14,084 bases of DNA from contig CAJWPV010000006.1 in assembly GCA_913045395.1 (NCBI GenBank), positions 1 through 14,084 on the forward strand, written 5' to 3'. The position numbers were made by a program, and so were the translations under genes. Of the stretch, positions 51 to 14,084 are shown piece after piece. A model generated the notes under the pieces. It was given only the letters and a program-made list of their open reading frames with translations. It was not told the origin of the DNA and did no database searches. Every line of letters starts with the position of its first letter. Within the stretch, counting starts at the first letter, position 1. The DNA comes from an uncultured Verrucomicrobiota bacterium (lineage in GTDB: Bacteria; Verrucomicrobiota; Verrucomicrobiia; Limisphaerales; UBA1096).

Positions 51-164
51 TTTTCACTATCTTCCCTCAAATTCCCTCTCTTTCGTGTCATAAACCAATT
101 GACTCAAAAAGTCGGAGGTTACCATTATCTCTCCTTGAACCGCTCGGTGTTTTTGGTCACGAAG

Positions 165-2858
165 ATGAACACTTTCCGCAGTCTCATGAACTCAACCCGC
201 CTCCGTAGATATGTCAGGCTGGGTTGTTTCCTGCTATTGTTTGGAAATGTTTTCATGCTTTGGGCGGAGCGTGCCGAGACATGGTGGGCCTTGCAGCCGT
301 TGAAAAGGCCGACAATTCCTGAAGAAGCATCAAAATTTTCCGGTTGGGCATCTAATCCAATTGATCGGTTCATCGCCTTAAAATACCTGCAGCACGGGTT
401 TGCACCGTCTCTCCAGGCCGATAGGGTCTCACTGATTCGGCGTGCGTCGTTTGACCTGACCGGCCTACCTCCGAGCCCGATGGAGGTGGATGTCTTTCTG
501 AATGATGATTCCCCAGATGCGTATGAAAGGCTCATTGAGCATCTGCTGGGCAGTCCTCGGTACGGGGAACGGTGGGCTCGGCACTGGATGGATGTCGTTC
601 ACTATGCTGAGACGCACGGGCATGATGAGGACGCGATCCGCGAGAACGCCTGGCCTTATCGCGATTACCTGATCGAGTCGTTTAACTCCGACAAGCCATA
701 CGCTCAATTCGTTCTTGAGCAGGTGGCGGGCGATGTGCTTTTCCAGGATCAACCGTCGGCGGTTCGTGCCATTGGGATGCTGGCAACTGGACCATGGGAC
801 GAGAGCTCTCAAATGGGAATATCAGACGGCACGATTGACAAGAAGATCGCGCAATATCTCGATCGTGACGACATGATAGCCACAGTGATGTCCACCTTCG
901 TTAGCACCACGGTTCACTGTGCCCGCTGTCACGACCACAAGTTTGATCCGGTATCAATGGATGACTACTACTCGCTGCAGGCAGTTTTTTCAGGTGTCGA
1001 TAAAGTGGATCGACATTACGATCTAAACGCCCAGGTGGCCAAGCGGCGTGAACGGCTACTTGATGAAAAGACAAAACTAGACCGTGGCGAATTGATGCAT
1101 CTGTTGCCCAACCATTTGCTTTTGGCCGATCGCGAACAGCAATTGCGGCTTGGCCAGGGTGGCTGGGTGGTCTTGTCCGGCGCCAAAGTCCAATCAACCG
1201 AAGGTGTATCATTTGAAGCCAAGGGGGACGGTTCCTTTCTTGCCCTAGGGCAAGCTCCAGAGCGCGACACGGTTACATTCACCGTCGCGCTGCCGATCGA
1301 CGGGATCACCGCCGTCCAACTCGATGTGCTCACTGATGAGTCGCTGCCAAAAGGCGGGCCAGGTCGTGCGCCAAACGGTAACCTGCATTTATCCGAAATC
1401 GTTTTAAAGGCGTTTGGTCGGCCGGTGAGGATCGTCAAAGCCAAGGCAGATTTTAACCAAGCGAATTGGGAAGTCCGACACGCAATTGACGGGGATTCAA
1501 AGACGGCTTGGGGAGTGCATCCGGAGGAGTCAAAACCGCACCGTGCCATGTTTGTTTTCGAGAAGCCGTTGGCCGCGCGGAAGGGAGAGATGATCGAGAT
1601 TGAGCTCCATCAGCTTCATGGCGGGAGTCATCTCATCGGTCGGTCGAGGTTGTCGGTGACCAACGAAGCCAAGCCAGCGCTGGTTAAAATTCTGCCACCA
1701 AACGTCAGTCAAGTGCTTGCGATTGAACCGGCCAAGCGCACAGCCGTGCAGACCAAGGTTTTAGCGCTTTATTTTTCCAGGGAATCGAATGCCGAGGATC
1801 TGGCCGAGCTTGGCGAGCGACCCAAAGTGTACGCTGTTGCCAGCGATTTTTCCGCGTTGGGCAACTTCAAGCCGGCCGGCAAGCCAAGAGATGTTCATGT
1901 CTTGTTGCGTGGCAGTATTCATTCACCTGGCGAAAGGGCCGTGCCCGGTGCGCTTGATTGTGTTGACGCTTTAAATAGTCGTTTCGCGATCTCCAGTTCC
2001 GATGACGAAGGGAAACGTCGGGCGGCCTTGGCCGCCTGGCTGGCGGATGAGCAAAATGTCCTGACGTGGCGATCGATCGTGAACCGCGTTTGGCATTATC
2101 ATTTTGGTCGAGGATTGGTCGGCACGCCCAACGACTTTGGTCGCATGGGGGATCGTCCGTCACACCCCGAACTGCTGGATTGGTTGACGTTCGAATTTCG
2201 CGCAAGGAACGGTTCACTGAAGTGGCTGCATCGCACCATCATGACCAGTTCGGTTTATCAACAGAGCTGCGCGCACCATGCGGATTACTCCAGGCGTGAC
2301 GCGGACAATCGCTGGCTTTGGCGGATGAACCGGGCACGGCTGGACGCGGAATCGTATCGTGATTCATTGCTGCAATTGGCCGGGAATATTGATTTTAAGA
2401 TGGGGGGGGCATCCGCACGACATTTTAACATGAGCAAGGGGGTGCATGTCACACCGAACCTTGATTATGTCGGTTTTGATCCCGATTCGCCGGCGAATTT
2501 CAGGCGGAGCGTGTACCGGTTTGTCTTTCGTACTGTCCCTGATCCACTCATGCAGTTGATGGATTGCCCGGACGCCTCGCAGCATGCGCCCAAGCGTGAG
2601 TCTTCCGTCACTGCGCTGCAGGCTTTGGCGATGATGAACAACCGTTTCCTAGTCCGTCAAAGTGAGCGCTTGGCGAAGCGGTTGCGCCATGAGACGTCGT
2701 CGCTTTCGGGACAAGTGGAGCGTCTTTTTGAGTTGGTATATCATCGGAAGCCGGTACCGGAAGAAGGCCGCATGGTTTTGGCACTGGCCCGCGAACACGG
2801 CTTGGCCAACGCCTGCCGGGTGATGCTAAATAGTAATGAATTCATTTTCCTGAACTGA
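165..2858 (+). CDS. PSCyt2/PSD1 (DUF1549-DUF1553) protein with one c-type heme motif
   Basis: Large exported protein of the planctomycete-type PSCyt2/PSD1 family, whose biochemical role is not established. From the ATG at 165 it has 897 residues. An N-terminal hydrophobic segment (about 16-33) is a likely signal peptide or anchor. The PSCyt2 (DUF1549) domain follows (about 60-280), with the family-typical 'NPIDRF', 'FDLTGLPPSP' and 'YGERWARHWMDV' segments and a CARCH heme-binding motif at 252-256. The middle (about 330-520) is β-rich and discoidin-like, ending near 'GGSHLIGRSRLSVT'. PSD1 (DUF1553) runs from about 618, including 'NRVWHYHFGRGLVGTPNDFG'. The frequent extra N-terminal PSCyt1 cytochrome domain is absent. 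The start is uncertain: in-frame TTG at 99 and 135 and GTG at 147 exist, and a GGAGG at 114-118 lies 16 bases before the TTG at 135. ATG 165 was chosen because it sits just before the signal-like segment. It probably forms an operon with the DUF1501 gene, one base away. Confidence 0.88.
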   Translation: MNTFRSLMNSTRLRRYVRLGCFLLLFGNVFMLWAERAETWWALQPLKRPTIPEEASKFSGWASNPIDRFIALKYLQHGFAPSLQADRVSLIRRASFDLTGLPPSPMEVDVFLNDDSPDAYERLIEHLLGSPRYGERWARHWMDVVHYAETHGHDEDAIRENAWPYRDYLIESFNSDKPYAQFVLEQVAGDVLFQDQPSAVRAIGMLATGPWDESSQMGISDGTIDKKIAQYLDRDDMIATVMSTFVSTTVHCARCHDHKFDPVSMDDYYSLQAVFSGVDKVDRHYDLNAQVAKRRERLLDEKTKLDRGELMHLLPNHLLLADREQQLRLGQGGWVVLSGAKVQSTEGVSFEAKGDGSFLALGQAPERDTVTFTVALPIDGITAVQLDVLTDESLPKGGPGRAPNGNLHLSEIVLKAFGRPVRIVKAKADFNQANWEVRHAIDGDSKTAWGVHPEESKPHRAMFVFEKPLAARKGEMIEIELHQLHGGSHLIGRSRLSVTNEAKPALVKILPPNVSQVLAIEPAKRTAVQTKVLALYFSRESNAEDLAELGERPKVYAVASDFSALGNFKPAGKPRDVHVLLRGSIHSPGERAVPGALDCVDALNSRFAISSSDDEGKRRAALAAWLADEQNVLTWRSIVNRVWHYHFGRGLVGTPNDFGRMGDRPSHPELLDWLTFEFRARNGSLKWLHRTIMTSSVYQQSCAHHADYSRRDADNRWLWRMNRARLDAESYRDSLLQLAGNIDFKMGGASARHFNMSKGVHVTPNLDYVGFDPDSPANFRRSVYRFVFRTVPDPLMQLMDCPDASQHAPKRESSVTALQALAMMNNRFLVRQSERLAKRLRHETSSLSGQVERLFELVYHRKPVPEEGRMVLALAREHGLANACRVMLNSNEFIFLN

Positions 2859-2859
2859 A

Positions 2860-4263
2860 GTGGATCACGCGATTTCCAGAAGGCTTTTTTTGCAGGCAAC
2901 AGGCGGCGGGTTTGGTGGTTTGGCACTTGGCCAAATACTGGGTTTGGACTCGGTATCGGGTTCAATCATGAATCATGCTCCCAAGGCCAAGAGGGTAATT
3001 CAATTGTTCATGAATGGGGGTGTCAGCCAGATGGACACTTTTGATCACAAGCCGGTCCTGGCCAACTTGAACGGGCAAAAGTTCGATCCAGGCGATGGCC
3101 GCCTGGTGGAGTCTGTGACCAACTCTCCAGGATTCAAGGTGCTGAAGAGTCCGTTCGCGTTTCGGCGGCATGGCGAGTGTGGCCGTTGGGTCAGCGAGGT
3201 GTTGCCGCACATGGCATCGGTGGTGGATGACTTGGCTTTTTTGATGTCGATGAATTCGCCGACTAATGTTCACGGGCTGGGCAGTTACATGCAGACAACC
3301 GGCTTCACGTTGCCGGGTTTCCCCTGCATGGGAGCCTGGATCAGTTATGCTCTGGGCCAGATCAACCAGAATCTTCCGGAGTTCATTGTCATGCCTGATC
3401 CAAAAGGGCTTCCGTATAATAATCTGGGGAATTTTACCTCCGGCTTTTTGCCGGCACGGCATCAGGGCACAGTTATCAACGCCTCTGATTCTCGTCCGGT
3501 GCGTTATCTTTTTCCACCGGCTGAAGCCAGGCATATCAACGCCGCCAGCGAGCAGGCCAGTCGTAATATCCTGAGTGCGCTCAACGAAAACCACGCAAGC
3601 CGGACACCCGGTGGTACTTGGCTCGAAGACAGAATACAGAGTCTTGAAATGGCGGCCCGCATGCAACTCAGTGTCCCGGAACTGTTCGACATGAAAGGCG
3701 AAAGCCAAGCAGTAAAGAGTCTTTACGGGATGAACGAAAAAAACACTGAGGATTTTGCCAAGCGCTGCATCCTTGGTCGTCGAATGCTGGAGAGAGGGGT
3801 GAGGTTTGTCCAAATCTGGAGTGGTGCGGGTGGCCCCAGTAAAAACTGGGACAACCATGCTAACATTCACACCGAGTTGCCATACATGACCCGGCAGGTG
3901 GACAAACCGATTGCCGGACTGATCAAGGACCTCAAGGCGCGCGGCATGCTTGAGGACACCCTTGTGATCTGGACCACCGAGTTTGGTCGCATGCCCTTTA
4001 GCCAAGGGCAGGCCGGCCGGGATCACAATGGCGGAACATTCGTCACATGGTTTGCCGGCGGCGGGATAAAAGGGGGCACCTCTTTTGGACAGAGTGATCG
4101 CTGGGGCTGGAAAAGCGATAAAGGGACAACGAGTCATGACATGCACGCCACGATTTTGGATCTACTGGGCGTGAATCATGAAAAGCTGACCGTGCGACAT
4201 AATGGTATCGATCGGCGTCTAACAGATGTCCACGGACAGGTTATTCGTGACATAATAGCGTGA
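2860..4263 (+). CDS. DUF1501 protein with Tat signal (alkaline phosphatase/sulfatase-like fold)
   Basis: 467-residue protein starting with GTG one base after the preceding stop, so translation is probably coupled. A twin-arginine signal is visible at residues 6-11 (SRRLFL), followed by a Gly-rich hydrophobic stretch (about 13-28), indicating Tat export of a folded protein. The remainder matches DUF1501, related to the alkaline phosphatase/sulfatase superfamily. Family landmarks are 'FMNGGVSQMDTFDHK' near the start of the domain, 'TEFGRMPFSQG' with 'GRDHNGGTF', and the C-terminal 'HDMHATILDLLGVNHEKL' and 'DRRLTDVHG' segments. It appears full length. PSCyt2/PSD1 and DUF1501 genes are habitual neighbours in PVC genomes and may act together at the cell envelope. 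The substrate is unknown; a role on sulfated or phosphorylated polymers is sometimes proposed, but nothing here proves it. Confidence 0.9.
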   Translation: MDHAISRRLFLQATGGGFGGLALGQILGLDSVSGSIMNHAPKAKRVIQLFMNGGVSQMDTFDHKPVLANLNGQKFDPGDGRLVESVTNSPGFKVLKSPFAFRRHGECGRWVSEVLPHMASVVDDLAFLMSMNSPTNVHGLGSYMQTTGFTLPGFPCMGAWISYALGQINQNLPEFIVMPDPKGLPYNNLGNFTSGFLPARHQGTVINASDSRPVRYLFPPAEARHINAASEQASRNILSALNENHASRTPGGTWLEDRIQSLEMAARMQLSVPELFDMKGESQAVKSLYGMNEKNTEDFAKRCILGRRMLERGVRFVQIWSGAGGPSKNWDNHANIHTELPYMTRQVDKPIAGLIKDLKARGMLEDTLVIWTTEFGRMPFSQGQAGRDHNGGTFVTWFAGGGIKGGTSFGQSDRWGWKSDKGTTSHDMHATILDLLGVNHEKLTVRHNGIDRRLTDVHGQVIRDIIA

Positions 4264-4299
4264 CTGCGGTGCAAGTGAATGGCGAATATCAAAACAGTT

Positions 4300-4313
4300 C
4301 AGCGAATTCGCTG
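4300..4313. promoter_or_regulatory. Perfect 14-bp palindrome in spacer
   Basis: CAGCGAATTCGCTG reads identically on both strands. It lies 37 bases after the DUF1501 stop in the 150-base noncoding stretch 4264-4413. No T-run follows, so it does not look like an intrinsic terminator. It could be an operator for the next gene, an mRNA 3'-end hairpin for the upstream pair, or chance. No other clear signal was seen in this spacer. Confidence 0.35.
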
Positions 4314-4413
4314 CATTCAGCTCGGTATCGAATGGTTGCTGGGGTAGGACGAGATGGTTAACTTGCAAAATTTGTTGAGTTTAGCCAGGCTCAGTTGGTT
4401 CGGGGCCGATGAA

Positions 4414-5010
4414 ATGAAAAGATTGACTGGCTTATTTGTCGCATGGTTACTCGCTGGATTCTTGACCTATCCTGCAGTAGCCGGGCCAGGGGATGAGGAA
4501 GGGTCAACCCTGCAGATTGCCATGAAGGATGGTGTGGTGGAACTTTCGGTTAGTTTTGATCAACTGTTCGATTGGGAGAGTATAAAATTTGTTTCCATAA
4601 AAACGTTTCCCAATGATCCCCCCTGGTTTCCGCCGACCCGTCATGAACTCACTTTCGGACATCACGAGGTAGGCACCGTGGAATGGTTCCAGTTCGACTA
4701 CATTGAGATAGGAAACTACGAGGTGACTGAAGATTTCACCGTTGAGGCGAAACTCTTTGGGCGCAAAAAAATTATTGGTGTGTTTGATCCCGGGACTAAT
4801 CTCTTGAAGTTTAATGGTTTGGACTACGAGCCGATGGCGAAGACGCCAACCTTTATTGTGAAAACCTCCACTAATTTGGAAAGTTGGAAGAAGGTCAGCA
4901 GCCTGGAGGAGGTTGACAATGAGTACAAATGGGGTCAATCGATGGCGGTACGCCTCAAGTTAAAATCGGCAGAACAGCAGTTTTTTATGATTCAGGTTGA
5001 TGAGGATTAG
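4414..5010 (+). CDS. Secreted protein of unknown function
   Basis: No family was recognised. From ATG 4414 the protein has 198 residues and opens with a clear signal peptide: MKR, a hydrophobic core at about 5-18, and an AVA cleavage site ending near residue 23. An upstream in-frame ATG at 4354 would add 20 residues before the signal peptide, which makes it less likely. The mature part is acidic and aromatic-rich, probably mostly β-strand. The end (about 145-198: 'FIVKTSTNLESWKKV', then 'RLKLKSAEQQFFMIQ') resembles a short C-terminal module common in secreted Verrucomicrobiota proteins, with a 'ST-L--W' strand and a final aromatic 'FF-I' or 'FYR' strand; that likeness is from memory. Its last 11 bases overlap the start of the ankyrin lipoprotein gene, so the two are probably co-translated. 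Confidence 0.8.
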   Translation: MKRLTGLFVAWLLAGFLTYPAVAGPGDEEGSTLQIAMKDGVVELSVSFDQLFDWESIKFVSIKTFPNDPPWFPPTRHELTFGHHEVGTVEWFQFDYIEIGNYEVTEDFTVEAKLFGRKKIIGVFDPGTNLLKFNGLDYEPMAKTPTFIVKTSTNLESWKKVSSLEEVDNEYKWGQSMAVRLKLKSAEQQFFMIQVDED

Positions 5011-5437
5011 CGGTAAACAGCTGAGATTATTCGCGTTCAGCTTTGCCTGTGCGTCGTTTCTGATGGCAGGATGTAGCAGTGGAAACATCCATACGGCTGC
5101 GTTTGATGGGGACTTGGCCAAGGTGAAGCAGTTGGTGGCCGGCGGCGTGGACATCAACCATCGCGACAAGAAAAAGGTGACACCGCTTCACATGGCGGCG
5201 TATCAGGGCAAAAGGGGCCATATCGAGATGGCTAAATGGCTTTTGGCCAACGGCGCGGATGTGACGGCGCGCGATTACGATGGAAAAACGCCCTTGGACG
5301 TTGCGAGTGAGCGAGGAAATACTCAGATTGCAGACGTTATCCGGGAGGGGCACACCGGCGGCCCCGGTCGCACGGGCAGCGGCGGGCGCCGATTGATCGA
5401 TGGGGGTGTAGGCGTCTCCGAGGTGCTTGATTTTTAG
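5000..5437 (+). CDS. Ankyrin-repeat lipoprotein
   Basis: 145-residue protein. A lipoprotein signal peptide ends in the lipobox LMAGC, with Cys25 as the predicted lipidated residue, so it should be membrane-anchored and exposed outside the cytoplasm. Three ankyrin repeats follow at about 30-57, 60-93 and 94-117, with the hallmarks 'TPLHMAA', 'LLANGADV' and 'TPLDVA'. The second repeat has a three-residue insertion (KRG) before 'GHIEMAKWLL'. Ankyrin repeats bind proteins, but the partner is unknown. The tail (118-145) is Gly-rich and ends 'LIDGGVGVSEVLDF'. The ATG at 5000 lies inside the previous gene; a TTG just before it at 4997 is an alternative. A terminator-like hairpin follows, so this gene probably ends a two-gene unit separate from the ABC/SPFH cluster. 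Confidence 0.85.
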   Translation: MRISGKQLRLFAFSFACASFLMAGCSSGNIHTAAFDGDLAKVKQLVAGGVDINHRDKKKVTPLHMAAYQGKRGHIEMAKWLLANGADVTARDYDGKTPLDVASERGNTQIADVIREGHTGGPGRTGSGGRRLIDGGVGVSEVLDF

Positions 5438-5447
5438 CCAAAATACG

Positions 5448-5466
5448 ACCGAAAACCGGTTTTTTT
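5448..5466 (+). terminator. Weak intrinsic terminator-like hairpin
   Basis: ACCG (5448-5451) can pair with CGGT (5457-5460) around the loop AAAAC, and the T-run 5460-5466 follows. The same place contains the perfect palindrome AAAACCGGTTTT (5452-5463). The stem is only 4 bp, so termination may be partial. The position, 11 bases after the ankyrin lipoprotein stop and before the ABC permease, fits an operon boundary. Confidence 0.45.
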
Positions 5467-5504
5467 AGCTAAAGTTCTCAGTTGCAATTGGCTCCGTGGC
5501 CGTT

Positions 5505-6491
5505 ATGTTTCCCGGCCCTTTTGGTTTGAGACAGTTCGGGACCATAGCTTACAATGCATTCATGGAAGTGGCTCAGCAGCCGGTTTATCTGTTGTTGATG
5601 GCCTGTTCCGGCTTTTTTTGCGTCTTTCTTTCCGTGGTTCCGTACTTTGGGTTTGGGGATGACATCCAGATGGTCAAGACCAGCACGCTGGCGGTGACAC
5701 TGGTGACCGGCCTGTTCGGGGCGGTGCTTTGCTCCTCGTCCTCGGTCGCACGGGAGATTCGCACCGGCACGGCGCTGGCGGTGCTGTCGAAGCCGGTGGG
5801 CCGGGCGCGGTTCATTCTCGGCAAGTACGTTGGGCTGTCCGGGGCGCTGATGATGCTGGTTTACGCAAACCTGATCGCCTGCCTGCTGGCCAGTCGCATG
5901 GCCTACGATGCGTACGGCTCGGCCGACACGTTTTCGTTTGGCGTGTACTGTGTAGGCGGCTTGTTGGCGGCGTTTGTGGCGGGTGGATTTTTGAATTATT
6001 TTTTGCAGGTGCGTTTTGTGATCACAACCGTGATCGCGATGGTGATCCTGACGACGGCGATGTTAATTATCATCCTTGCCACCGAGGCGGAGACGACTGG
6101 CGCCGGGGCAGACCCGCGCGTGGTTGATTGGCGGCTGATCTCGGCGTCGGTGCTGATTTTGTTTGCGGTCCTGATCCTGACGGCACTGGCGCTGGCCTGC
6201 TCGACACGGCTTGAGCTGTTGCCGACGCTGGCGATCTGTTCGGGGGTGCTTTTTCTCGGGCTGATGTCAGACTGGCTTTTTCTGGGCCGAGTGGATGGAG
6301 GCTCGTGGTGGGCCTCGATCCTCTACACCGTGACGCCCAACTGGCAGAACTTTTGGCTGGCCGACGTGCTGGAAGGGGACGGAACGATTCCTCTGGGGTA
6401 CATTGGGCAGGCGTTCGGATATCTCGTGGGCTATGTGGGGGCAAGCTTGTCGGTTGCCCTTTGGTTGTTTGAGGATCGTGAGCTAACGTAA
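5505..6491 (+). CDS. ABC-2 type transporter permease
   Basis: Integral membrane permease subunit of an ABC-2 exporter, 328 residues from ATG 5505. About seven or eight membrane segments are visible, near 28-47, 61-79, 107-129, 144-166, 171-192, 211-233, 239-260 and 300-321. The family-typical cytoplasmic segment 'SSSVAREIRTGT' followed by 'LSKPVGRARFILGKY' lies between the second and third. The same pattern recurs in the permease starting at 13730, so the two are probably partners or paralogues. A GTG at 5496 in the same frame would add three residues; neither start has a good ribosome-binding site. The stop overlaps the start of the next gene (TAATG), indicating translational coupling with the SPFH protein. 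No ATPase gene is adjacent; the nearest is at 12558. The substrate is unknown. Confidence 0.85.
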   Translation: MFPGPFGLRQFGTIAYNAFMEVAQQPVYLLLMACSGFFCVFLSVVPYFGFGDDIQMVKTSTLAVTLVTGLFGAVLCSSSSVAREIRTGTALAVLSKPVGRARFILGKYVGLSGALMMLVYANLIACLLASRMAYDAYGSADTFSFGVYCVGGLLAAFVAGGFLNYFLQVRFVITTVIAMVILTTAMLIIILATEAETTGAGADPRVVDWRLISASVLILFAVLILTALALACSTRLELLPTLAICSGVLFLGLMSDWLFLGRVDGGSWWASILYTVTPNWQNFWLADVLEGDGTIPLGYIGQAFGYLVGYVGASLSVALWLFEDRELT

Positions 6492-8431
6492 TGGAACAGC
6501 AAAACTCCAAAAAACTTGGATTCATCAACGGACTCGTGCTGTTGGTCGTCACGATAGGGGCGTTATTCTTGGCCGGCTCCACAGTGGGACAGGCCGGGGT
6601 GGTGCTTCTCAGCATCGGGACGCTGATCAGCTTCTTTGGCTTCATCCAGTCGCACCTGATCGACCGCGAGCAGGTTGAGGCGTTGGAGATGCAGGAGTTG
6701 GACCGCTCCCAACCGCCCATATTGGGCAAGTCGCTCTTTGCCGGCGCGGCGGAGGATGCCTACCCGGCGCGCAACGCAAGGCGGCAGTTCGAGAAATGGG
6801 TGGTGCCGGCCTTCTCGGTGCTGGTGCTGCTTAGCCAAGTGCTTGGCCTGTTGTTGGTTTTCAGTCAACTCCACGGCGAACTCGGCGGTTGGACTCTTTT
6901 TACTCAGGCCTCGGGCAGCGCGTTGCAGATCATGTTCTTCGCCCTGTTCATGGTCGTCCTGTTTATGATGGGCAAATACTCCGCCGGCCTCGCCCGGATG
7001 GACGGCCAGGAATTGTTGCGCCCAGGCGCGAGCTACATGCTGTTGGGCTCGGTGGTGTGCACGGCGGTGGTTATTGCCGAGGCGGCCTCCTTTTTCGGTC
7101 AGGTTTGGGACAGGGGCATCACGTGGGTGGTGTTTGCTGTCATCGCGGTTTCCGCGCTGGAGAATCTTGTCACGCTGGTGCTCGAGATTTACCGGCCCCG
7201 GCTCGACGACAAAAAGGCGCGGCTGCTCTACGAGAGCCGTCTGATCGGTTTGCTTGGACAACCGGGCGGCCTGATCTCAACTGCCACGCAGGCGTTGGAT
7301 TACCAGTTTGGCTTCAAGGTTTCAGAGACGTGGTTTTACAAGTACCTCGAACAGAAGCTGGCGCTGATCATTGCCATCCAGGTCGTGGTGCTTTTCCTGA
7401 GCAGCAGCTTCGTGGTGGTCCAACAGAACGAGGAGGCTTTCCTTGAGCGTTTTGGCAAACGTAACGACCACCTGCTGCCCGGTTTCAGTTTCAAGCTGCC
7501 TTGGCCGATCGACAAGGTTTACCGCTACAAGACAAAAAAAATACAAAACTTTGTCCTAGGCGTGCTGGATAAGGACGAGGCGGCCAAGCCGAACAGCGGT
7601 GATCCCGAGGATGTGCAAGTGTTGCTCTGGACCAGCCAGCACAACCACGGTTCTTCCAAGGATCCAGAGCAGAATTACAACATGATTGTTGCCAGCAGCG
7701 ATGTGCTGCTGGACACGGCCGCTTCCGATTCTGTTCCGGTGAACCTCCTGACTGTCAGCATCCCGGTCCAGTACCGCATCAACAACCTGACCAACTGGGT
7801 TTACAACACAGACAACGCCGGGTCGATGTTGCAGAAACTTTCAATGCGTGAAGTGACACGTTATCTGATTGGCGTGGACATCCACGAGCTGATGGGTCCA
7901 GGCCGCACGAAGGCTCAAGAGGAACTGAAGAAGGCCATCCAGCGACAGGCCGATATCAGCCAACTCGGCGCTGAAATCGTGTTTGTTGGCTTGCAGGATA
8001 TACACCCGCCTGTGGGCCAAAACGAGCAGTCCAAAGCCAGTGGCGGTGTGGCAGAAAGTTACGAAAAAGTAAACGTGGCCCAGTTGCACAGTGGAACCAA
8101 TCGGCTGGGCGCATTGCAGTACAAGGCAGGGAAGGTTCCCCGGGCGCGAGGGGCCGCGTCTGAGCTTCTGGCAAAGGCGCGCAGCGAGAGCACCAGCAAG
8201 GTGGCCAAGGCCAAGGCCGAGGCCGGGCGGTTTGATCAACAACTGTCCGCCTTCAATGCGGCGCCTAGCGTCTATAAGACGAGATCGAAGCTTGAGGCCT
8301 TCCAGCGGACTACAAAGGGTGCGCGAAAATACATTCTGTCCGACCCTGCGAATCGCGATATCATTAACTTGGAACTGCAGGACAAACTGCGCAGCGACCT
8401 ACTGGACGTGACGGTCGACCCGGAAAATTAA
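6491..8431 (+). CDS. HflK-like SPFH/Band 7 protein with multi-helix N-terminal region
   Basis: 646-residue membrane protein. The first 300 residues hold about six hydrophobic helices (11-29, 34-54, 103-127, 143-162, 180-202, 209-232). A seventh at 288-308 directly precedes the SPFH domain (about 308-500). SPFH landmarks are 'NEEAFLERFGK', 'LLPGFSFKLPWPIDKVYRY' and 'IPVQYRI', the last typical of HflK. The C-terminal part follows the HflK pattern: 'LQDIHPPVG', an Ala/Lys-rich α-helical segment (about 550-585), 'RFDQQLSAFNAAPSVYKTRS', then a short tail. E. coli HflK has a single N-terminal helix and about 420 residues, so the N-terminal extension is unusual. Known HflK/HflC assemblies surround and modulate the FtsH protease; here the partner is not shown. 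Its ATG overlaps the permease stop by one base, and the next SPFH gene follows after 18 bases. Confidence 0.88.
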   Translation: MEQQNSKKLGFINGLVLLVVTIGALFLAGSTVGQAGVVLLSIGTLISFFGFIQSHLIDREQVEALEMQELDRSQPPILGKSLFAGAAEDAYPARNARRQFEKWVVPAFSVLVLLSQVLGLLLVFSQLHGELGGWTLFTQASGSALQIMFFALFMVVLFMMGKYSAGLARMDGQELLRPGASYMLLGSVVCTAVVIAEAASFFGQVWDRGITWVVFAVIAVSALENLVTLVLEIYRPRLDDKKARLLYESRLIGLLGQPGGLISTATQALDYQFGFKVSETWFYKYLEQKLALIIAIQVVVLFLSSSFVVVQQNEEAFLERFGKRNDHLLPGFSFKLPWPIDKVYRYKTKKIQNFVLGVLDKDEAAKPNSGDPEDVQVLLWTSQHNHGSSKDPEQNYNMIVASSDVLLDTAASDSVPVNLLTVSIPVQYRINNLTNWVYNTDNAGSMLQKLSMREVTRYLIGVDIHELMGPGRTKAQEELKKAIQRQADISQLGAEIVFVGLQDIHPPVGQNEQSKASGGVAESYEKVNVAQLHSGTNRLGALQYKAGKVPRARGAASELLAKARSESTSKVAKAKAEAGRFDQQLSAFNAAPSVYKTRSKLEAFQRTTKGARKYILSDPANRDIINLELQDKLRSDLLDVTVDPEN

Positions 8432-8449
8432 CCATTCTCTTTAAAAAAA

Positions 8450-9346
8450 ATGAAAAAAAATTACATTACAATGACCGTTGGCGCCTTTCTGGTGATCATA
8501 TTCGGTTTTATGCTGTTTACGTTTCAGGTGCGTCAGACCGAAGTGGCCATCAAGACCCGTTTCGGCAAGGCCAGTGAGGATGCCCTCGGCCCCGGTTTTA
8601 ACCTTCGCCTGCCTTGGCCGGTGAATGAGGTGTATAAGTTTGATAACCGAATTCAGAACTCCGAGTGGACGTTCGAAGAGACTGGCACCAAAGAGGGCAA
8701 GCCGATCCTCGTCAAGGTATTTGTCACATGGAAAATCAAAGAACCACTCAAGTTCTACAACAGCTTCAGTGGCGACTTGGCCGAGGCTAACGAGGTGCTC
8801 GAGGGAAAAGTTCGTAGCGCCCAAAATGCTGTGATCGGTATGTACGCTTTCAACAATCTGGTGACCACCAACGAGGAAGATCTTAAGCTCGATGCCATCG
8901 AGGCAGACATGAGGGATCGTGTCGACAAGGATTCGGAGGGTGATGGTATCGAGATCATGATGGTCGGCATTAAGCGGCTCGGCATTCCTGAGTCAGTCAC
9001 CGGCGCCGTATTCGAGCGAATGAAGGCCGAGCGTCAGGCTCGAATTCAGGAGATTGAGGCCGAAGGCGAGCGCCAAGCCAAGACAATCAAGGCCGAAGCC
9101 GACCTCAAAGCCAACGAGATATTGGCCGAGGCAGAGGCCCAGGCCATCCAGATTCGTGGGGAAGCCGAGGCCCAGGCCGCCAAGTATTTTGAGGTGTTCA
9201 AGAAAAACCCTGAACTGGCCAACTTTCTATTTAACCAAAAGGCGCTGGAGGGATTGCTCAAGGACAACGCCACGCTGATTCTCGATCCCAAAACGCCCCC
9301 GTTCAACCTATTGACACAGCCGAACACGGACAAGTCGGCCGAGTAA
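8450..9346 (+). CDS. HflC-like SPFH/Band 7 protein
   Basis: 298-residue protein with one N-terminal membrane helix (about 5-25), an SPFH domain (about 26-190) and a long Glu/Ala-rich helix (about 188-245). It matches HflC in order and length: 'VRQTEVAIKTRFGK', 'GPGFNLRLPWPVNEV', 'VFERMKAERQARIQEIEAEG', 'ILAEAEAQAIQIRGEAEAQA', then 'YFEVFKKNPELANF' and 'NATLILDP' near the end. In E. coli, HflC alternates with HflK in a cage around FtsH, and this protein probably pairs with one or both flanking HflK-like proteins. No Shine-Dalgarno is seen: the ATG is flanked by two runs of eight A (8443-8450, counting the A of the ATG, and 8453-8460). Only four bases separate its stop from the next ATG. Confidence 0.9.
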   Translation: MKKNYITMTVGAFLVIIFGFMLFTFQVRQTEVAIKTRFGKASEDALGPGFNLRLPWPVNEVYKFDNRIQNSEWTFEETGTKEGKPILVKVFVTWKIKEPLKFYNSFSGDLAEANEVLEGKVRSAQNAVIGMYAFNNLVTTNEEDLKLDAIEADMRDRVDKDSEGDGIEIMMVGIKRLGIPESVTGAVFERMKAERQARIQEIEAEGERQAKTIKAEADLKANEILAEAEAQAIQIRGEAEAQAAKYFEVFKKNPELANFLFNQKALEGLLKDNATLILDPKTPPFNLLTQPNTDKSAE

Positions 9347-9350
9347 AGCC

Positions 9351-10433
9351 ATGAGCGAGGACAAAAAACAGACCCCAGCTGTCGAGTCACCAGAAGAGCC
9401 ACCCCCGATGGGGGCTACGGAGGCCGTAGACGACGCCCGCACCCGGGCGTTGACCGAGGCGCTCCAGAGCAGCTTCAAGGTGGTTCGCGTAATCATGGTG
9501 ATACTGGCCGTGGCATTTCTCGGCTCCGGCATCACCAAGATCGATAACAACAAGCGGGCGCTGCATCTCCGGTTCGGTAAATATAAAGATACGCTTCCTC
9601 CCGGTTTGGCCTGGGCCTGGCCCTATCCCATCGATGAGATTGTGCAGATTCCGGTAAACAAAAATCGCACGATTACTTCTGACGTCGGTTGGCGCACCGA
9701 GGACGAGGAATCGCCCCAGCCCAGCATGTCGTTCCAGCCGACCTACGATGGCTATACTCTCACCGGAGACGGCAATGTTCTCCATGTCAAGGCGGAGATG
9801 AACTTCAGCCTCGATGAAAACTCAGATAAAACCATCAAGAGATACGAGTTCGGCTTCTCCGATGTTACCCGGTTCCTCGGCTCGATTTTAGACAATGCCG
9901 TTTACCATGCCTCCGCTGGCCGTAGCGCCCTTGAGGCCTATACCCTGCAGTCCGACCTTAGAAACGCCATTGAGCGTCGTGTGAAAAAAAGGATAGGTGA
10001 GATTGACAGCGACCTGCGGATAAAAATCAACTCACTCACACTCGACGTCACGGTGCCGTTGGATGTAAAGACAGCTTTTGACGCGTTCCTGAAAGTCCAG
10101 CAGGAGAGCCAGCAAAAGGTGGCGACGGCCAAGGCCGATGCCACCAGTACCTTGGCCAACGCGCTGGGGCAGGCCAAGGTCATCGAAGGTGGTGGCCGGA
10201 CGGCGGCAAACGTCCTCCTCTCTTCGGTACAGGCCGAGGCGAAGGCATTTGACGAGCAGCGGCCTTTTTATGAGGACAACCCGGGGCTATTTGAGAAGCG
10301 ACTGGTCGCCGAGACCATGCAGCGTGTGCTCACCAATGCCGTCGACGTCTTTTATCTCTCCGGCCGCCAGCCTCGCATTTGGCTGAATCGCACGCCGGAA
10401 AGACGGAAACTGGAGGAAGGCCAGGTGCCTTGA
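9351..10433 (+). CDS. Second HflK-like SPFH/Band 7 protein
   Basis: 360-residue protein. A charged, Pro-rich cytoplasmic N-terminus (1-40) precedes one membrane helix (about 43-60) and an SPFH domain (about 62-250). The segments 'NNKRALHLRFGKYKDTLPPG', 'PYPIDEIVQIPVNKNRTI' and 'LTGDGNVLHVKAEMNFSL' correspond to the HflK hallmark of a TGD-N strand leading into the SPFH core. A helical region rich in Ala and Gln (about 240-300) follows, then the HflK-like end 'DEQRPFYEDNPGLFEKRL'. It is more conventional in layout than the 646-residue HflK-like protein two genes upstream, with a single helix rather than seven. It probably assembles with the HflC-like protein encoded four bases upstream. The 55-base spacer after it carries a palindrome and the ribosome-binding site of the metal ATPase. 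Confidence 0.87.
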   Translation: MSEDKKQTPAVESPEEPPPMGATEAVDDARTRALTEALQSSFKVVRVIMVILAVAFLGSGITKIDNNKRALHLRFGKYKDTLPPGLAWAWPYPIDEIVQIPVNKNRTITSDVGWRTEDEESPQPSMSFQPTYDGYTLTGDGNVLHVKAEMNFSLDENSDKTIKRYEFGFSDVTRFLGSILDNAVYHASAGRSALEAYTLQSDLRNAIERRVKKRIGEIDSDLRIKINSLTLDVTVPLDVKTAFDAFLKVQQESQQKVATAKADATSTLANALGQAKVIEGGGRTAANVLLSSVQAEAKAFDEQRPFYEDNPGLFEKRLVAETMQRVLTNAVDVFYLSGRQPRIWLNRTPERRKLEEGQVP

Positions 10434-10451
10434 CACCAACAAGTTACAGTG

Positions 10452-10465
10452 CGCTTGGCCAAGCG
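10452..10465. promoter_or_regulatory. Perfect palindrome before the P-type ATPase gene (copy A)
   Basis: CGCTTGGCCAAGCG is a perfect 14-bp inverted repeat in the 55-base spacer between the third SPFH gene and the metal ATPase. Nearly the same sequence recurs at 12527-12542 before the ABC ATPase. It could be an operator (for example for a metal sensor), an RNA hairpin upstream of the ribosome-binding site AGGA at 10479-10482, or a dispersed repeat. Function is not shown. Confidence 0.45.
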
Positions 10466-10488
10466 AAGCGATAACAATAGGAACAATC

Positions 10489-12507
10489 ATGCAAATTTCA
10501 TCACTTTTAAGCCGGAAAGAGATTCGCGAGCACCATCACGATCACGACGACAGCGATAGTTGCGCTCACGACCACGACCACACCCAGTTCAGGCTCACCA
10601 CCATGATTGCCGGCGTGGTGTTTATCGCCAACTCCTTCTTCATGGAGTGGTTCGGCGGCACGGACGACCGGATTGCGGGCGTCAGCGCGTTCATCGGTGC
10701 GATCATCCTTGGCTTCCCGATCCTTAAGCTAGCCGTCAAGGATATCATGCGTGGTATGCTCACCATTAATGAGTTGGTCGCCATCGCATTCCTAGCAGCG
10801 ATCGCTTCGGGCGAGTCGCAGCTTGGTGGCTATCAGACTGCCGGCATCGTCGCTTTTTTCATGTTGCTGGGTGAGCTGATCGAGACCCGCACCGCCGCCG
10901 GCGCGCGCGCCTCCATCGCGTCGCTCGTCAAGATGACCCCGACCAAGGCCCGCCGAATTGTCGGCGACGGCGAAGAGGAAGTGACCGCGTCTGATCTGAA
11001 GATCGGCGACGTGATCCGGATACGCCCCGGCGACAACGTCGCGGCTGACGGGAAAATCCTCAAGGGCCAGGGCTCCATCAACCAGGCCAACATCACCGGC
11101 GAATCGCTCCCGGTGGATAAGTCCACTGGCGAAGAGGTGTTCGCCGGCACGACCAACCTGACCGGCATGCTTGAGGTCGAGGTCACCCGCGCCGGGGAGG
11201 ATACCACCTTTGGCCGTGTGCGTGATCTGATCCTTTCCGCCGAGCAAACCAAGCTGCCCATCATGCGGATCATCGATCAGTACATGGGTTATTACACGCC
11301 GCTGGTGCTGGTGATCGCGGGTGTCGTCTGGTTTTTTACACAGGACATCGAGCGTGTTGTTTCGGTGCTAGTGATCTCCTGCCCATGTGCATTCATTCTT
11401 GCATCACCGACGGCGATGGTCGCTGCTTTGGCCTCGGCCGCACGGCTGGGCATTCTCATCAAGAACGTCGGCGACATCGAGATTGCGGCGCGCATCAACG
11501 CCTTTGTGTTCGACAAGACCGGCACACTGACCACCGGTGAACTTGCGGTCAGCCGCCTGGCTCCGCAGGGCGACATCAAGCCAGCCGAGCTGCTCAAGAT
11601 CGCTGCTACAGCCGAAAAATTCAGCAACCACCCGACGGCCAAGGCGCTGGTCAGTCTGGCGGAAGAAGCCGGGGTGACGCTGGCCGACCCTGGCGATTTC
11701 AAGGAGACCGCAGGCAGGGGTGTGCAGGCTAGCGTGGAAGGGGCGAGCATCATTATCGGCCGTGCTCAGTGGTTGCGCGACAATGGTGTGAGCGACGATT
11801 TTGAGTTGAAGGTGGACCTGAAGGAGGCCGAAGGCTACAGCCTGTTGTTCGTTGCCCGGGGCGGTGTTTGCATAGGCTGGATTGGCCTGCAGGATGCCAC
11901 CCGCACCGAGGCCAAGGAGGCGTTGGCTGACCTGCTTGAGTCTGGCGTTCGCCGCGTGGCGATGGTTTCCGGTGACCGCCAGCCGGTTGCCGCCCGCGTG
12001 GCTGCCGAGATCGGCTGCGATGAAGTCGTGGCCGAGTGCCTGCCGCAGAACAAGGTAGACTTCGTCAGTGATTTGAAAAAGCGTGGCTATCGCGTGGCCG
12101 TGATTGGTGACGGGGTGAATGATGCCCCGGCACTTGCGGCGGGCGACATGGGAGTGGCGATGGGCGCGGCTGGCAGTGAGGTGGCCATCCAGAGTGCCAC
12201 CATCGCGCTGATGAATAATGACCTGCGCCGGCTGCCGTTCCTCGTGCGTCTTTCGCGGCAGACCCGCGCGGTGATAAACCAGAATTTCCTGTTCGGCATT
12301 CTTTTCATCATCGGTGGCATGATTGGTGCCAGCTACGGTGTGATCAACCCGATCGTTGCGGCGCTGCTGCATAACGCCGGGTCGTTGATCGTGGTGTTCA
12401 ACAGCGCGCGCCTGGTTCGCCAGGGCGAGGAACTGGGGTCGTTCGAGCCGGAGTCAACACCGGCGAGCACCGATGATCCGGCCGGCATGGCGGCCCAGCC
12501 CGCTTGA
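10489..12507 (+). CDS. P1B-type heavy-metal-translocating ATPase with His/Asp-rich leader
   Basis: 672-residue cation pump. All catalytic elements are present: TGES in the actuator domain (203-206), CPC in the metal-path helix (298-300), phosphorylated Asp342 in DKTGT, the P1B-specific HP (381-382) and GDGVND (540-545). Eight membrane helices are visible: about 36-54, 62-80, 92-107, 116-131, 267-283, 290-312, 597-614 and 617-640. There is no HMA domain with GMxCxxC; instead residues 15-31 hold seven His, six Asp and one Cys, likely a cytoplasmic metal-binding leader. The last helices lack the Lys and Asp typical of Zn/Cd/Pb pumps and read 'LLHNAGSLIVVFNSARL', so the metal cannot be named. It probably exports a transition metal from the cytoplasm. 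The start is supported by AGGA (10479-10482) six bases upstream. It sits between the SPFH genes and the ABC ATPase. Confidence 0.93.
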   Translation: MQISSLLSRKEIREHHHDHDDSDSCAHDHDHTQFRLTTMIAGVVFIANSFFMEWFGGTDDRIAGVSAFIGAIILGFPILKLAVKDIMRGMLTINELVAIAFLAAIASGESQLGGYQTAGIVAFFMLLGELIETRTAAGARASIASLVKMTPTKARRIVGDGEEEVTASDLKIGDVIRIRPGDNVAADGKILKGQGSINQANITGESLPVDKSTGEEVFAGTTNLTGMLEVEVTRAGEDTTFGRVRDLILSAEQTKLPIMRIIDQYMGYYTPLVLVIAGVVWFFTQDIERVVSVLVISCPCAFILASPTAMVAALASAARLGILIKNVGDIEIAARINAFVFDKTGTLTTGELAVSRLAPQGDIKPAELLKIAATAEKFSNHPTAKALVSLAEEAGVTLADPGDFKETAGRGVQASVEGASIIIGRAQWLRDNGVSDDFELKVDLKEAEGYSLLFVARGGVCIGWIGLQDATRTEAKEALADLLESGVRRVAMVSGDRQPVAARVAAEIGCDEVVAECLPQNKVDFVSDLKKRGYRVAVIGDGVNDAPALAAGDMGVAMGAAGSEVAIQSATIALMNNDLRRLPFLVRLSRQTRAVINQNFLFGILFIIGGMIGASYGVINPIVAALLHNAGSLIVVFNSARLVRQGEELGSFEPESTPASTDDPAGMAAQPA

Positions 12508-12518
12508 GCGGTTTTTTT
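12500..12518 (+). terminator. Short GC hairpin plus T-run over the ATPase stop codon
   Basis: CCGC (12500-12503) can pair with GCGG (12508-12511) around TTGA, followed by seven T (12512-12518). The TGA stop codon at 12505-12507 lies in the loop. The 4-bp stem makes it a weak terminator at best; it may attenuate read-through into the ABC ATPase rather than stop it. Confidence 0.35.
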
Positions 12519-12526
12519 CATGAGTA

Positions 12527-12542
12527 GCGCTTGGTCAAGCGC
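12527..12542. promoter_or_regulatory. Palindrome before the ABC ATPase gene (copy B)
   Basis: GCGCTTGGTCAAGCGC has 7-base arms (GCGCTTG/CAAGCGC) around GT. It matches the element at 10451-10466 in 14 of 16 positions. It lies 15 bases before ATG 12558, just upstream of the ribosome-binding-like AGGGA at 12543-12547. A right half-site, CCAAGCGC, occurs at 13721-13728 before the next gene. Confidence 0.45.
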
Positions 12543-12557
12543 AGGGACAACACAACT

Positions 12558-13706
12558 ATGAGTTCAAACGAAACGGTCATTTTCGCTCAGGGCTTGACCA
12601 AGGTGTTCAAGGATTTCTGGGGCCGAACCAAGGCGCGCGCCGTCGAGGGAATCGACTTCGAGGTCAAGCGCGGCGAGGTGTTTGGCCTACTTGGTCCGAA
12701 CGGCTCCGGCAAGTCCACCACGGTGAAGATGCTGCTTGGCTTGCTGTACCCGACACGAGGCCGCATCAGCGTCTTTGACCACTCGCCGCGTCACGTACAG
12801 ACCAAGGCGCGCATCGGCTATCTGCCGGAGGAATCGTACCTTTACCGTTACCTTAACTCTGACGAGACGATCGACTTTTTCGGCAGCCTTTTTCACGTCG
12901 ACTCCAAGGAGCGCCGCGAGCGCGCCGAGCAGTTGATCGAGATGGTCGGGCTGGGCAACGCCCGCCGCCGTCATGTTGGCGAATTCTCTAAGGGCATGCA
13001 GCGCCGCATCGGTTTGGCGCAGGCGCTCATCAACGACCCCGACCTGATTGTCCTGGATGAGCCGACCTCTGGGCTCGACCCAATCGGCTGTCGCGAAATC
13101 AAGGACCTGATCCTCACGCTCGCTGAGCGTGGCAAGACGGTCATCCTGTCGAGCCATCTGTTGGCCGACGTGGAGGATGTATGCGACCGGGCAATGATTT
13201 TGTACGGTGGCCGTGTGCAGGCGATGGGCACCATGAGCGAGCTATTAGCCAACCGCGACGCCACGCGTATCACCGCGCCAACCCTCTCGCGCGAGACGAT
13301 GGACAAGGTACTGACGCTGATCCGCGAGGACACTGGCTCGGATGAGGTTCGGGTGGACAATCCCACGCAGAATCTCGAGAGCCTGTTTCTCAACATCGTT
13401 GAGCAGGCGCGCCAGACGGAATCCGAAACATCCGGGGCGACTTCCGGCAATCGAGTGGCAGAGTATTTGCGCGGCGACGCGTCGGGCAATCGGGCCGACC
13501 GCGTGCTTGATCATCTCACCCGCGCCGTGGATGAGGCAACCCCTGGCAAAGTGCCGGATGTTACCAAGCCTGCGGAGCCGGTGGACATCGATAAACTGGC
13601 CGGCTTGGCAAAGGCCGAGCCCGTCCCGCAAGCAGATGTCGCCGCGAAGAAGGAGGAGAATCTCGACAAAGCCAACGATAAACTGGGCGGATTGCTAGGC
13701 GACTGA
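12558..13706 (+). CDS. ABC transporter ATP-binding protein with C-terminal extension
   Basis: Nucleotide-binding subunit of an ABC-2 exporter, 382 residues from ATG 12558. Walker A is GPNGSGKST (46-54), the signature motif is a variant FSKGM (143-147), Walker B is LIVLDEP with Asp167 and Glu168, and the switch His is His200 in SSHLL. The canonical ATPase domain ends near 235. An accessory region (about 236-285) resembles the DUF4162-like end of many ABC-2 ATPases. About 95 further residues (286-382) are hydrophilic, rich in Ala, Asp and Lys, with two 'SGNR' copies and no recognised domain. The longer reading frame from TTG 12531 starts inside the palindrome and lacks a ribosome site, so ATG 12558 with AGGGA upstream is preferred. 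The permease gene follows after 23 bases and is its likely partner; the permease at 5505 may be a second. Confidence 0.92.
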   Translation: MSSNETVIFAQGLTKVFKDFWGRTKARAVEGIDFEVKRGEVFGLLGPNGSGKSTTVKMLLGLLYPTRGRISVFDHSPRHVQTKARIGYLPEESYLYRYLNSDETIDFFGSLFHVDSKERRERAEQLIEMVGLGNARRRHVGEFSKGMQRRIGLAQALINDPDLIVLDEPTSGLDPIGCREIKDLILTLAERGKTVILSSHLLADVEDVCDRAMILYGGRVQAMGTMSELLANRDATRITAPTLSRETMDKVLTLIREDTGSDEVRVDNPTQNLESLFLNIVEQARQTESETSGATSGNRVAEYLRGDASGNRADRVLDHLTRAVDEATPGKVPDVTKPAEPVDIDKLAGLAKAEPVPQADVAAKKEENLDKANDKLGGLLGD

Positions 13707-13720
13707 TTTTCCGCCGCGAA

Positions 13721-13728
13721 CCAAGCGC
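13721..13728. promoter_or_regulatory. Half copy of the cluster palindrome
   Basis: CCAAGCGC matches the right arm of the palindromes at 10452 and 12527 and lies one base before the ATG of the last permease. Eight bases could match by chance; it is listed because the position, a spacer directly before a gene start, is shared with the two full copies. Confidence 0.2.
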
Positions 13729-13729
13729 T

Positions 13730-14084
13730 ATGTGGCCCATTGCCAAGCAGACTTTGAAAGCCGCCATTCGGTACCGATTTGTCGTGGCGATGGTTGTCGC
13801 GTTGCTGGTCATCGTTTTTGGCATTCCGCTGCTGGTGAAGAGCGACGGCACGGCCAAGGGCACAGTGCAGCTCGTGCTGACCTACACGCTTGGCTCGACC
13901 ACGGCACTGCTGGGCATCGCCTCGCTTTGGATGGGGTGCAGTACGCTGGCCCGCGAGATTGAGGACAACGTAATGCAGATGGTCGCCGTCAAACCGATCG
14001 CCCGCTGGCAGGTGTGGCTCGGCAAGTGGCTGGGCATCATGCTGCTCAACGGGGTTTTCTCCTCCCTGTACCTCATCTACATCA
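13730..14084 (+). CDS. ABC-2 type transporter permease, N-terminal part
   Basis: Open reading frame running off the window end, 118 codons visible, starting 'MWPIAKQTLKAAIRYRF'. Hydrophobic segments lie at about 17-36, 45-69 and 98-118. Between the second and third is 'STLAREIEDN', followed by 'VAVKPIARWQVWLGKW', which matches the pattern AREI...KP..R....GK in the permease at 5505. It is therefore an ABC-2 permease and probably the direct partner of the ATPase 23 bases upstream. No clear ribosome-binding site is seen, so translation may be coupled. The C-terminal half and any following genes are outside the window. Confidence 0.85.
   Translation, partial: MWPIAKQTLKAAIRYRFVVAMVVALLVIVFGIPLLVKSDGTAKGTVQLVLTYTLGSTTALLGIASLWMGCSTLAREIEDNVMQMVAVKPIARWQVWLGKWLGIMLLNGVFSSLYLIYI

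Follow-up and report, generated by a model that had tools for sequence, protein, structure and literature searches.

The gene cluster

The window, by which we mean the whole stretch of 14,084 nucleotides analysed here, is the entire contig C6 of a MAG that is 68% complete. An ORF check confirmed the seven genes of the original prediction, all on the same strand, in the predicted order and together occupying 5496..14084 (Table 1): a permease (Perm1), three SPFH proteins, a P1B-type metal ATPase, an ABC ATPase and a second permease (Perm2). The tight linkage of the first four was also borne out, with a 1-base overlap between Perm1 and the long HflK and gaps of 18 bases to the HflC gene and 4 bases to the second HflK gene; a gap of 55 bases to the P1B gene and two of 23 bases (P1B/ABC ATPase and ABC ATPase/Perm2) follow. 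The longest frame of Perm1 starts with GTG at 5496, 5505 being an in-frame ATG, and its product scores 17.6 bits against ABC2_membrane_2 (PF12679), below the Pfam cut-off of 27.2 bits. The contig end leaves only the first 118 codons of Perm2, of which a longer homologue in locus L045 (from 17231 on) reaches 30.3 bits with PF12679, above the cut-off. The transcription unit may be bounded on its 5' side by the hairpin ahead of Perm1; the pattern scan gave 14 terminator-like sites in 4200-14084 against 11.3 expected.

Table 1. Features of the cluster and the evidence for their assignment
Feature	Coordinates	Strand	Evidence
Terminator-like hairpin and T run, just 5' of Perm1	5447..5461	+	Pattern scan only
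Perm1, ABC-2-like permease, 331 aa	5496..6491	+	Sub-threshold PF12679
Long HflK, 646 aa	6491..8431	+	Band_7 E 1.3e-11; AF2 models, PDB matches, CDF profile match
HflC-like SPFH protein, 298 aa	8450..9346	+	Band_7 E 5.1e-30; TIGR01932
Second HflK-like SPFH protein, 360 aa	9351..10433	+	Band_7 E 8.5e-17; TIGR01933 below cut-off
P1B-type metal ATPase, 672 aa, His-rich N-terminal tail, CPC and HN	10489..12507	+	TIGR01525; motifs; clade
ABC ATPase, 391 aa, extended at the C-terminus, facultative part	12531..13706	+	ABC_tran E 7.7e-32
Perm2, ABC-2 permease, facultative part	13730..14084	+	Homologue in L045

A Band_7 domain was found in all three SPFH proteins, preceded by a TM helix in the modelled long HflK. 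The HflC-like protein scores 138.8 bits against TIGR01932, above the cut-off of 134.4 of this NCBIfam equivalog for the protease modulator HflC, and the long HflK (119.5 bits) and the second HflK (97.1 bits with TIGR01933) both lie below the HflK equivalog cut-off of 159.4. As predicted, no protease accompanies them: a Pfam scan of ten window proteins gave no hit to any protease family, and an FtsH fragment is found on contig C99 of the same MAG. An extra HflC-like gene is located on contig C257, and several relatives carry additional short HflK-like frames elsewhere in the genome.

The P1B ATPase scores 542.3 bits against TIGR01525 (cut-off 346.25), matches E1-E2_ATPase and Hydrolase in Pfam and has a His-rich N-terminal tail. 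It carries all of the motifs that mark a P1B metal ATPase (CPx, DKTGT, TGES and GDGxND), with TGES at residue 203, CPC at 298, DKTGT at 342, GDGVND at 540 and HNAGS at 628. According to the passages covered, CPC plus an HN motif define the P1B6-like class, to which CtpC belongs, and the window protein has both marks (CPC 298, HN 628). Among 112 P1Bs from trio-bearing loci, labelled as linked per locus so that a few are split from their trio, CPC is present in 96, the H in 104 and HN in 56; an intact CPC is missing in 16.

A core of three SPFH genes and one metal ATPase

The core of the cluster is smaller and older than the seven genes and consists of the three SPFH genes and the P1B gene. Among 239 genomes of the phylum other than the window's own, 95 have the long HflK and 94 the linked P1B clade; 94 have both and 144 neither, at limits (P1B at least 612 bits, HflK E <=2e-43) that were set after the score gap had been seen. 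For 91 of the 104 P1Bs of this clade, a long HflK lies no more than 8 kb away, and for 88 it is upstream on the same strand; in the other 13 cases the long HflK sits elsewhere in the genome, on a different contig. Some of these cases are contig ends, but two genomes (G178 and G132) have a long HflK genuinely separate from an HflC-HflK-P1B block. In the P1B tree, a branch with SH-aLRT 100 separates the trio-linked proteins from 14 unlinked P1Bs. The four core genes also occur on proteobacterial plasmids, five trio-linked P1Bs of which fall within the linked side; nothing closely matching the Klebsiella plasmid block came up in the E. coli genomes. Fusions of P1B to Band_7 (959-1055 aa) are present in four genomes from two families, and an intact CDF is fused to Band_7/SPFH in two further genomes. 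As judged from sequence, the conserved block, the co-inheritance, the single clade and the fusions establish this core, and the predicted association of the SPFH proteins with the metal ATPase is supported.

Two kinds of candidate were rejected: the CadA-like P1Bs next to the CDF-SPFH fusions (L215 and L216) are placed outside the linked clade by the tree, and a 922-aa gene 3' of the trio in L217 encodes a protein kinase, not a P1B.

Conservation of the gene order

The seven-gene order extends beyond one genome and is kept more often than by chance: of the 44 named loci of the source's bacterial order that have enough flank, 38 carry all seven genes so arranged. In the named loci the HflC (72/72), second HflK (66/66) and P1B (53/53) genes are on the same strand, and Perm1 is 5' of the long HflK in 67/67 loci with flank, versus 5/37 across the phylum; the ABC ATPase is downstream in 43/49 versus 21/38. 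The counts for the named loci come from a tblastn recount; gene calls by longest ORF gave 36/44 for all seven genes, 66/67 for Perm1 and 70/72 for HflC, the three misses being ORF-start artefacts. In the phylum loci (40 from 36 genomes, hand-picked for spread), a gene was counted if it lay on the strand of the long HflK and no further from it than a fixed distance. Six named loci lack an adjoining ABC gene; of five such genomes searched, four hold it at 64-69% identity outside the stretch read, and the fifth gave no homologue at E <=1e-60. No ABC gene follows the P1B gene in four annotated plasmid loci. We regard the ABC ATPase and the permeases as an addition particular to this lineage, the role of which is uncertain.

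A family scan of 69 proteins (67 of 97 flanking genes and two others) found no family in more than 2/69 among the best 25 of 63 families. FUR and MerC were encountered as metal-related families.

The N-terminal domain of the long HflK

Residues 1-238 of the long HflK are predicted to form a CDF-like domain of six TM helices, followed by the SPFH TM helix and the SPFH/Band_7 domain at about 281-609. AF2 models match PDB entries of YiiP/ZnT in the N-terminal domain and of HflK in the SPFH part, profile comparison matches the N-terminal domain to CDF, and the predicted structure has the six-TM CDF fold. This separate domain was absent from the original prediction. For 16 members, the CDF family PF01545 is not among the best 25 of 30 Pfam families (the other five rank after E 5.2), and against one relative's long HflK it gives E 0.12 over 37 positions. 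The domain encoded in the window contains no [HD]xxxD metal site; two such motifs occur in 5/135 relatives, none of which, by position, has them split between TM2 and TM5. The region is predicted to be a CDF zinc-transporter fold without metal ligands, differing from YiiP and ZnT in its fusion to SPFH, in the missing metal-ligand motif and in the lack of a CDF match among the Pfam families listed. With six TM helices ahead of the SPFH TM helix, the SPFH domain would be periplasmic if the N-terminus is cytoplasmic. We interpret this domain as a structural belt or as a docking module, which would make it a transporter fold reused as a cage scaffold.

Relation to zinc and to the P. aeruginosa hmtA locus

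The core matches P. aeruginosa PA2439-PA2435 (hmtA) in published gene names and order: the rows covered place genes for HflK-family, HflC, HflC-family and P-type ATPase proteins in a single cluster (PA2434-PA2439) and show no ABC genes. The claim that no system of this make-up had been described therefore holds for the seven genes in the searches made, but not for the core. In the passages covered, PA2434-PA2439 genes rise 5.6-14.4-fold in a znuA mutant, HmtA and the HflC/HflK proteins rise on zinc depletion (not all significantly) and Zur shifts the promoter of PA2439, the first gene of the locus. In contrast to this shift, a review has all uptake promoters bound by Zur except that of hmtA, and in one study hmtA mRNA was low throughout, without repression by zinc. 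HmtA is reported to import zinc and copper, for which review passages want further proof. These responses belong to P. aeruginosa, and the passages covered do not tie its SPFH genes to HmtA function.

In two loci of one family (L173 and L184), the gene directly 5' of the block belongs to the Fur family and comes nearest to Zur (43.2 and 50.4 bits against a cut-off of 167), and in L198 the block stands 3' of zinc ABC transporter genes. The window has no match to a Zur box of Pseudomonas-type consensus, 0.73 being expected. The arrangement appears to be tied here to zinc or copper handling.

Going by locus-tag numbers, paFlo5-7 would be the SPFH trio of the hmtA locus. Deletion of paFlo5-7 (PA14_33070, 33080 and 33110) is described, in the passages covered, as reducing biofilm by ~20% and causing some loss of virulence in Galleria, with normal growth in rich medium; neither "copper" nor "hmtA" occurs in that P. 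aeruginosa paper.

Proposed function

To our knowledge, SPFH proteins are widespread, the clients of most are not known, and the membrane proteins found caged so far are one protease and a few channels. HflK and HflC form a ring with a periplasmic dome around FtsH. Here, in contrast to E. coli, the client gene encodes a P1B ATPase, and there are three SPFH genes and an extra CDF-like domain. We consider it probable that these proteins make up an SPFH cage reserved for a metal P-type ATPase, whose job would most likely be the uptake of zinc or copper under shortage. The long HflK, the HflC and the second HflK would jointly build a ring and dome like that around FtsH; the ATPase would lie in the patch of membrane that they surround; the long HflK would contribute its six TM helices, with their predicted ligand-less CDF fold, as a belt or docking part; and the pump would move zinc or copper inward when the metal is short. 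The folds and topology are predicted from models, and we infer the enclosure, the substrate and the direction, the last from gene order only. A likeness is offered by the stomatin dome (PMC12407830), an SPFH ring around the transport proteins AQP1 and UT-B; in the parts covered, that system is human, has an intramembrane belt, transports water and urea and is without gene linkage.

The client of an SPFH system would then be legible from the genome, as one transporter clade that accompanies the trio in 94 of 95 long-HflK genomes and is sometimes fused to SPFH. If the cage encloses the pump, the system would be a tractable bacterial model of SPFH compartments, would give a role to the little-studied PA2437-PA2439 of P. 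aeruginosa and would offer a way to test the odd claim of a metal-importing P1B ATPase. Among the matches listed in the open-licence literature there was no report of an SPFH-P1B complex and no experiment on a Verrucomicrobiota protein. A bolder generalization, which we offer tentatively, is that bacteria may provide metal transporters with SPFH "membrane encapsulins" of their own, in which a periplasmic dome, built in part from a retired CDF zinc transporter, encloses the P1B and selects the metal that reaches it, with the pump working inward; the separate P1B-SPFH and CDF-SPFH fusions would then reflect SPFH cages wired to metal transporters more than once.

The same cage or scaffold might instead serve efflux, with the P1B exporting metal as in PacL1-CtpC (PMC9374683), a reading that we regard as rather unlikely. 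The exporter CtpC also has the CPC and HN pair and resides in membrane platforms with a scaffold protein, whose gene is paired with that of the ATPase; a His-rich tail fits export equally, and metal P-type ATPases, according to the passages covered, mostly serve efflux. However, PacL1 is a small DUF1490 protein and not SPFH, its foci form without flotillin in the passages covered, zinc depletion induces the identically ordered P. aeruginosa locus, to which Zur also binds, and the adjoining Zur-like gene, in two loci of one family, also speaks against export. Uptake is thus more likely than export for a caged P1B, and the predicted metal export is called into question by hmtA, a relative by gene order and names reported as an importer, yet CPC/HN is common to CtpC and review passages doubt the import.

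Unlikely, too, is a trio that acts as an assembly or quality-control chaperone, stabilizing the P1B but leaving the working pump unenclosed: flotillins are described, in the passages covered, as stabilizing membrane proteins in microdomains, and the detached long HflK of G178 and G132 would suit such a role, but the covalent joining of P1B to SPFH in the fusions implies that the two stay in contact permanently and one to one. Less probable again is the full original model, in which the SPFH proteins scaffold one microdomain for both transporters, metal ATPase and ABC exporter; its ATPase half agrees with the 94/95 genomes and the fusions, and the ordered loci (38/44) with the ABC gene downstream (43/49) favour the whole, but the ABC half is weakened by the phylum loci (ABC 21/38, Perm1 5/37), by the four genomes with an ABC gene elsewhere and the one without it at E <=1e-60, and by the four plasmid loci. 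Ordinary FtsH modulation with the transporters as bystanders, to which the HflC equivalog score points, is very improbable, since both HflK-like proteins fall below their cut-off, further short HflK-like frames exist elsewhere in several relatives, and the co-inheritance of the trio with the P1B and the P1B-SPFH fusions led us to reject this as the main role.

Conservation of the cluster within the order

The original prediction placed seven consecutive membrane-associated genes on one strand, and this was confirmed: all lie on the + strand in the predicted order, with spacings of -1, 18, 4, 55, 23 and 23 bases. The MAG holding the window is 68% complete, and the window is one entire contig of it. 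Genome contigs were searched with an alignment profile of the long HflK, a 646-residue SPFH protein with an extra N-terminal domain predicted to be six-TM and CDF-like (577 pattern matches, 515 relatives), and the best 80 relatives were kept, every one but one titled as a Verrucomicrobiota MAG. The exception (L057) has a cluster typical of Verrucomicrobiota although its title reads Euryarchaeota archaeon, and is probably a mislabelled or mixed bin. Among those of the 80 loci with enough flank, a tblastn recount found the ABC-2-like permease Perm1 in 67/67, HflC in 72/72, the second HflK in 66/66, the P1B metal ATPase in 53/53, and the ABC ATPase and the second permease, Perm2, each in 43/49. 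Of 44 loci, 38 have all seven genes in order on a single strand, so the arrangement is not confined to the window genome; an ORF-based count is lower (36/44) owing to three start artefacts. Among the loci compared, the PSD1/PSCyt2-DUF1501 pair is confined to those whose HflK is at least about 64% identical to that of the window. ORFs of about 520-570 amino acids follow Perm2 in many loci of the phylum.

Features in the window and in loci of relatives (L numbers)
Feature	Location	Strand	Remarks
tRNA gene, 3' part	window 1-47		32.2 bits to Rfam RF00005; truncated by the contig start
PSD1/PSCyt2 and DUF1501 gene pair	window 99-4263		upstream of cluster
Small ankyrin-repeat protein	window 4997-5437		lipoprotein-like start; overlaps hypothetical gene 4354-5010
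Perm1, long HflK, HflC, second HflK, P1B ATPase, ABC ATPase, Perm2	window 5496 to contig end	+	seven-gene run
P1B ATPase and SPFH domain fusion	L211:6637-9609, L212:4440-7454, L213:5864-9031, L214:130-3009		one open frame
CDF-SPFH fusion	L215:4032-5576, L216:5328-6857		CDF domain with both HxxxD motifs
Fur-family regulator	L173:6534-7028, L184:12873-13355		best NCBIfam match Zur, far below cut-off
Protein kinase gene	L217:8592-11360		immediately after SPFH trio; clade P1B of that genome on another contig
550-residue protein	L045:18779-20431		after Perm2; without Pfam family

The conserved unit across the phylum

Long-HflK matches were compared with P1B-family matches in 240 Verrucomicrobiota genomes (90% completeness requested), including the window's own. 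The long HflK occurs in 95 of the 239 others, the P1B clade in 94 and both in 94. A long HflK is found no more than 8 kb from 91 of the 104 clade P1Bs, and for 88 of these it is upstream on the same strand; for the remaining 13 it is on a different contig. In 40 loci hand-picked for spread, P1B lies downstream of the long HflK in 35/39, as against 21/38 for ABC and 15/35 for Perm2, and Perm1 lies upstream in 5/37. The unit is therefore the SPFH trio (long HflK, HflC and second HflK) plus P1B, older and smaller than the seven-gene cluster; the ABC and Perm1 genes are more loosely attached to it. This core is already present in databases and is not new there; among the best matches of a literature search, none treating it as an SPFH-transporter system was found.

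Weak tblastn matches to the long HflK (about 21-28% identity) occur in 32 plasmid records. Of five regions opened, the four annotated ones (Burkholderia ubonensis, Rhizobium tumorigenes, Paraburkholderia sprentiae and Klebsiella aerogenes) hold the core four genes in identical order, as do the ORFs of the unannotated fifth (R. lusitanum). An HflC search of plasmids gave ten records at 59-100% identity and 43 further ones below 30%, save two short pieces (33% and 57%). In Paraburkholderia, the genes lying before the block encode a zinc ABC transporter and a copper chaperone.

Fusion proteins and the P1B clade

Four genomes (families f29 and f48) encode a single protein of 959-1055 residues with P1B domains followed by Band_7 (E 2.3e-18 to 1e-22), each adjoined by one or two extra SPFH genes. 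In two other genomes Cation_efflux (E 8.5e-29 and 9.6e-30) is joined to Band_7, with HflC and then HflK downstream; PPIC-type rotamase genes adjoin the fusion in L215. In a tree of 67 hand-chosen P1Bs, built by a quick method with midpoint root and no bootstrap and carrying long-branch and letter-composition warnings, a branch with SH-aLRT 100 has all 47 trio-linked P1Bs (16 from the order, 26 from the phylum and five proteobacterial) on the same side. Next to them come the four P1B-SPFH fusions (92, not starred); 14 unlinked P1Bs and two beside CDF fusions fall outside.

SPFH proteins form rings enclosing membrane proteins, as HflK/HflC do around FtsH. Stomatin encloses AQP1 and UT-B, according to the portion of PMC12407830 consulted. 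Co-inheritance and the fusions make the P1B ATPase the natural client of the SPFH proteins, and an SPFH ring may enclose it in a cage-like geometry. The original prediction had the SPFH proteins scaffold or regulate a microdomain holding a metal exporter and an ABC exporter. Its scaffolding idea is right in its main part and better founded than first stated; the link to the metal ATPase stands, that to the ABC transporter is weak (21/38 phylum loci), and metal export is unproven.

Substrate and direction of transport

Among 112 P1Bs from trio-bearing loci, CPC is intact in 96, and TM8 carries H in 104 and HN in 56, including 5/5 proteobacterial P1Bs. The pairing of CPC with HN is termed P1B6-like for CtpC, an exporter, in the excerpt of PMC9374683 available, so the motif leaves direction unsettled. 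A His-rich N-terminus (4-16 His within the first 60 residues) is usual in the order (16/16 P1Bs) and not in the phylum at large.

The core is linked to the Pseudomonas aeruginosa hmtA locus by gene order and names. The sections of PMC4542158 consulted give induction in a znuA mutant of PA2439 (HflK family; 9.0-fold), PA2438 (HflC; 10.6-fold), PA2437 (HflC family; 14.4-fold), PA2435 (HmtA; 5.6-fold) and PA2434 (6.5-fold), and note a weak Zur site. As far as the available parts of the other sources extend, Zur shifts the PA2439 promoter, completely only with Zn, and hmtA mRNA is low, without repression by zinc (PMC8531726); zinc depletion raises HmtA, HflC and HflK proteins, not all significantly (PMC11761036); and a review has Zur binding all uptake promoters except that of hmtA, and regards the evidence for HmtA import as overexpression, requiring more analysis (PMC10393844). 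On Zur, these sources disagree. Given the hmtA locus and a Fur-family gene, closest to Zur, that immediately precedes the block in two loci from a single family, the substrate is likely to be zinc or copper, and uptake appears somewhat likelier than export. L173 and L182 also have MerC-domain genes in the neighbourhood of the block.
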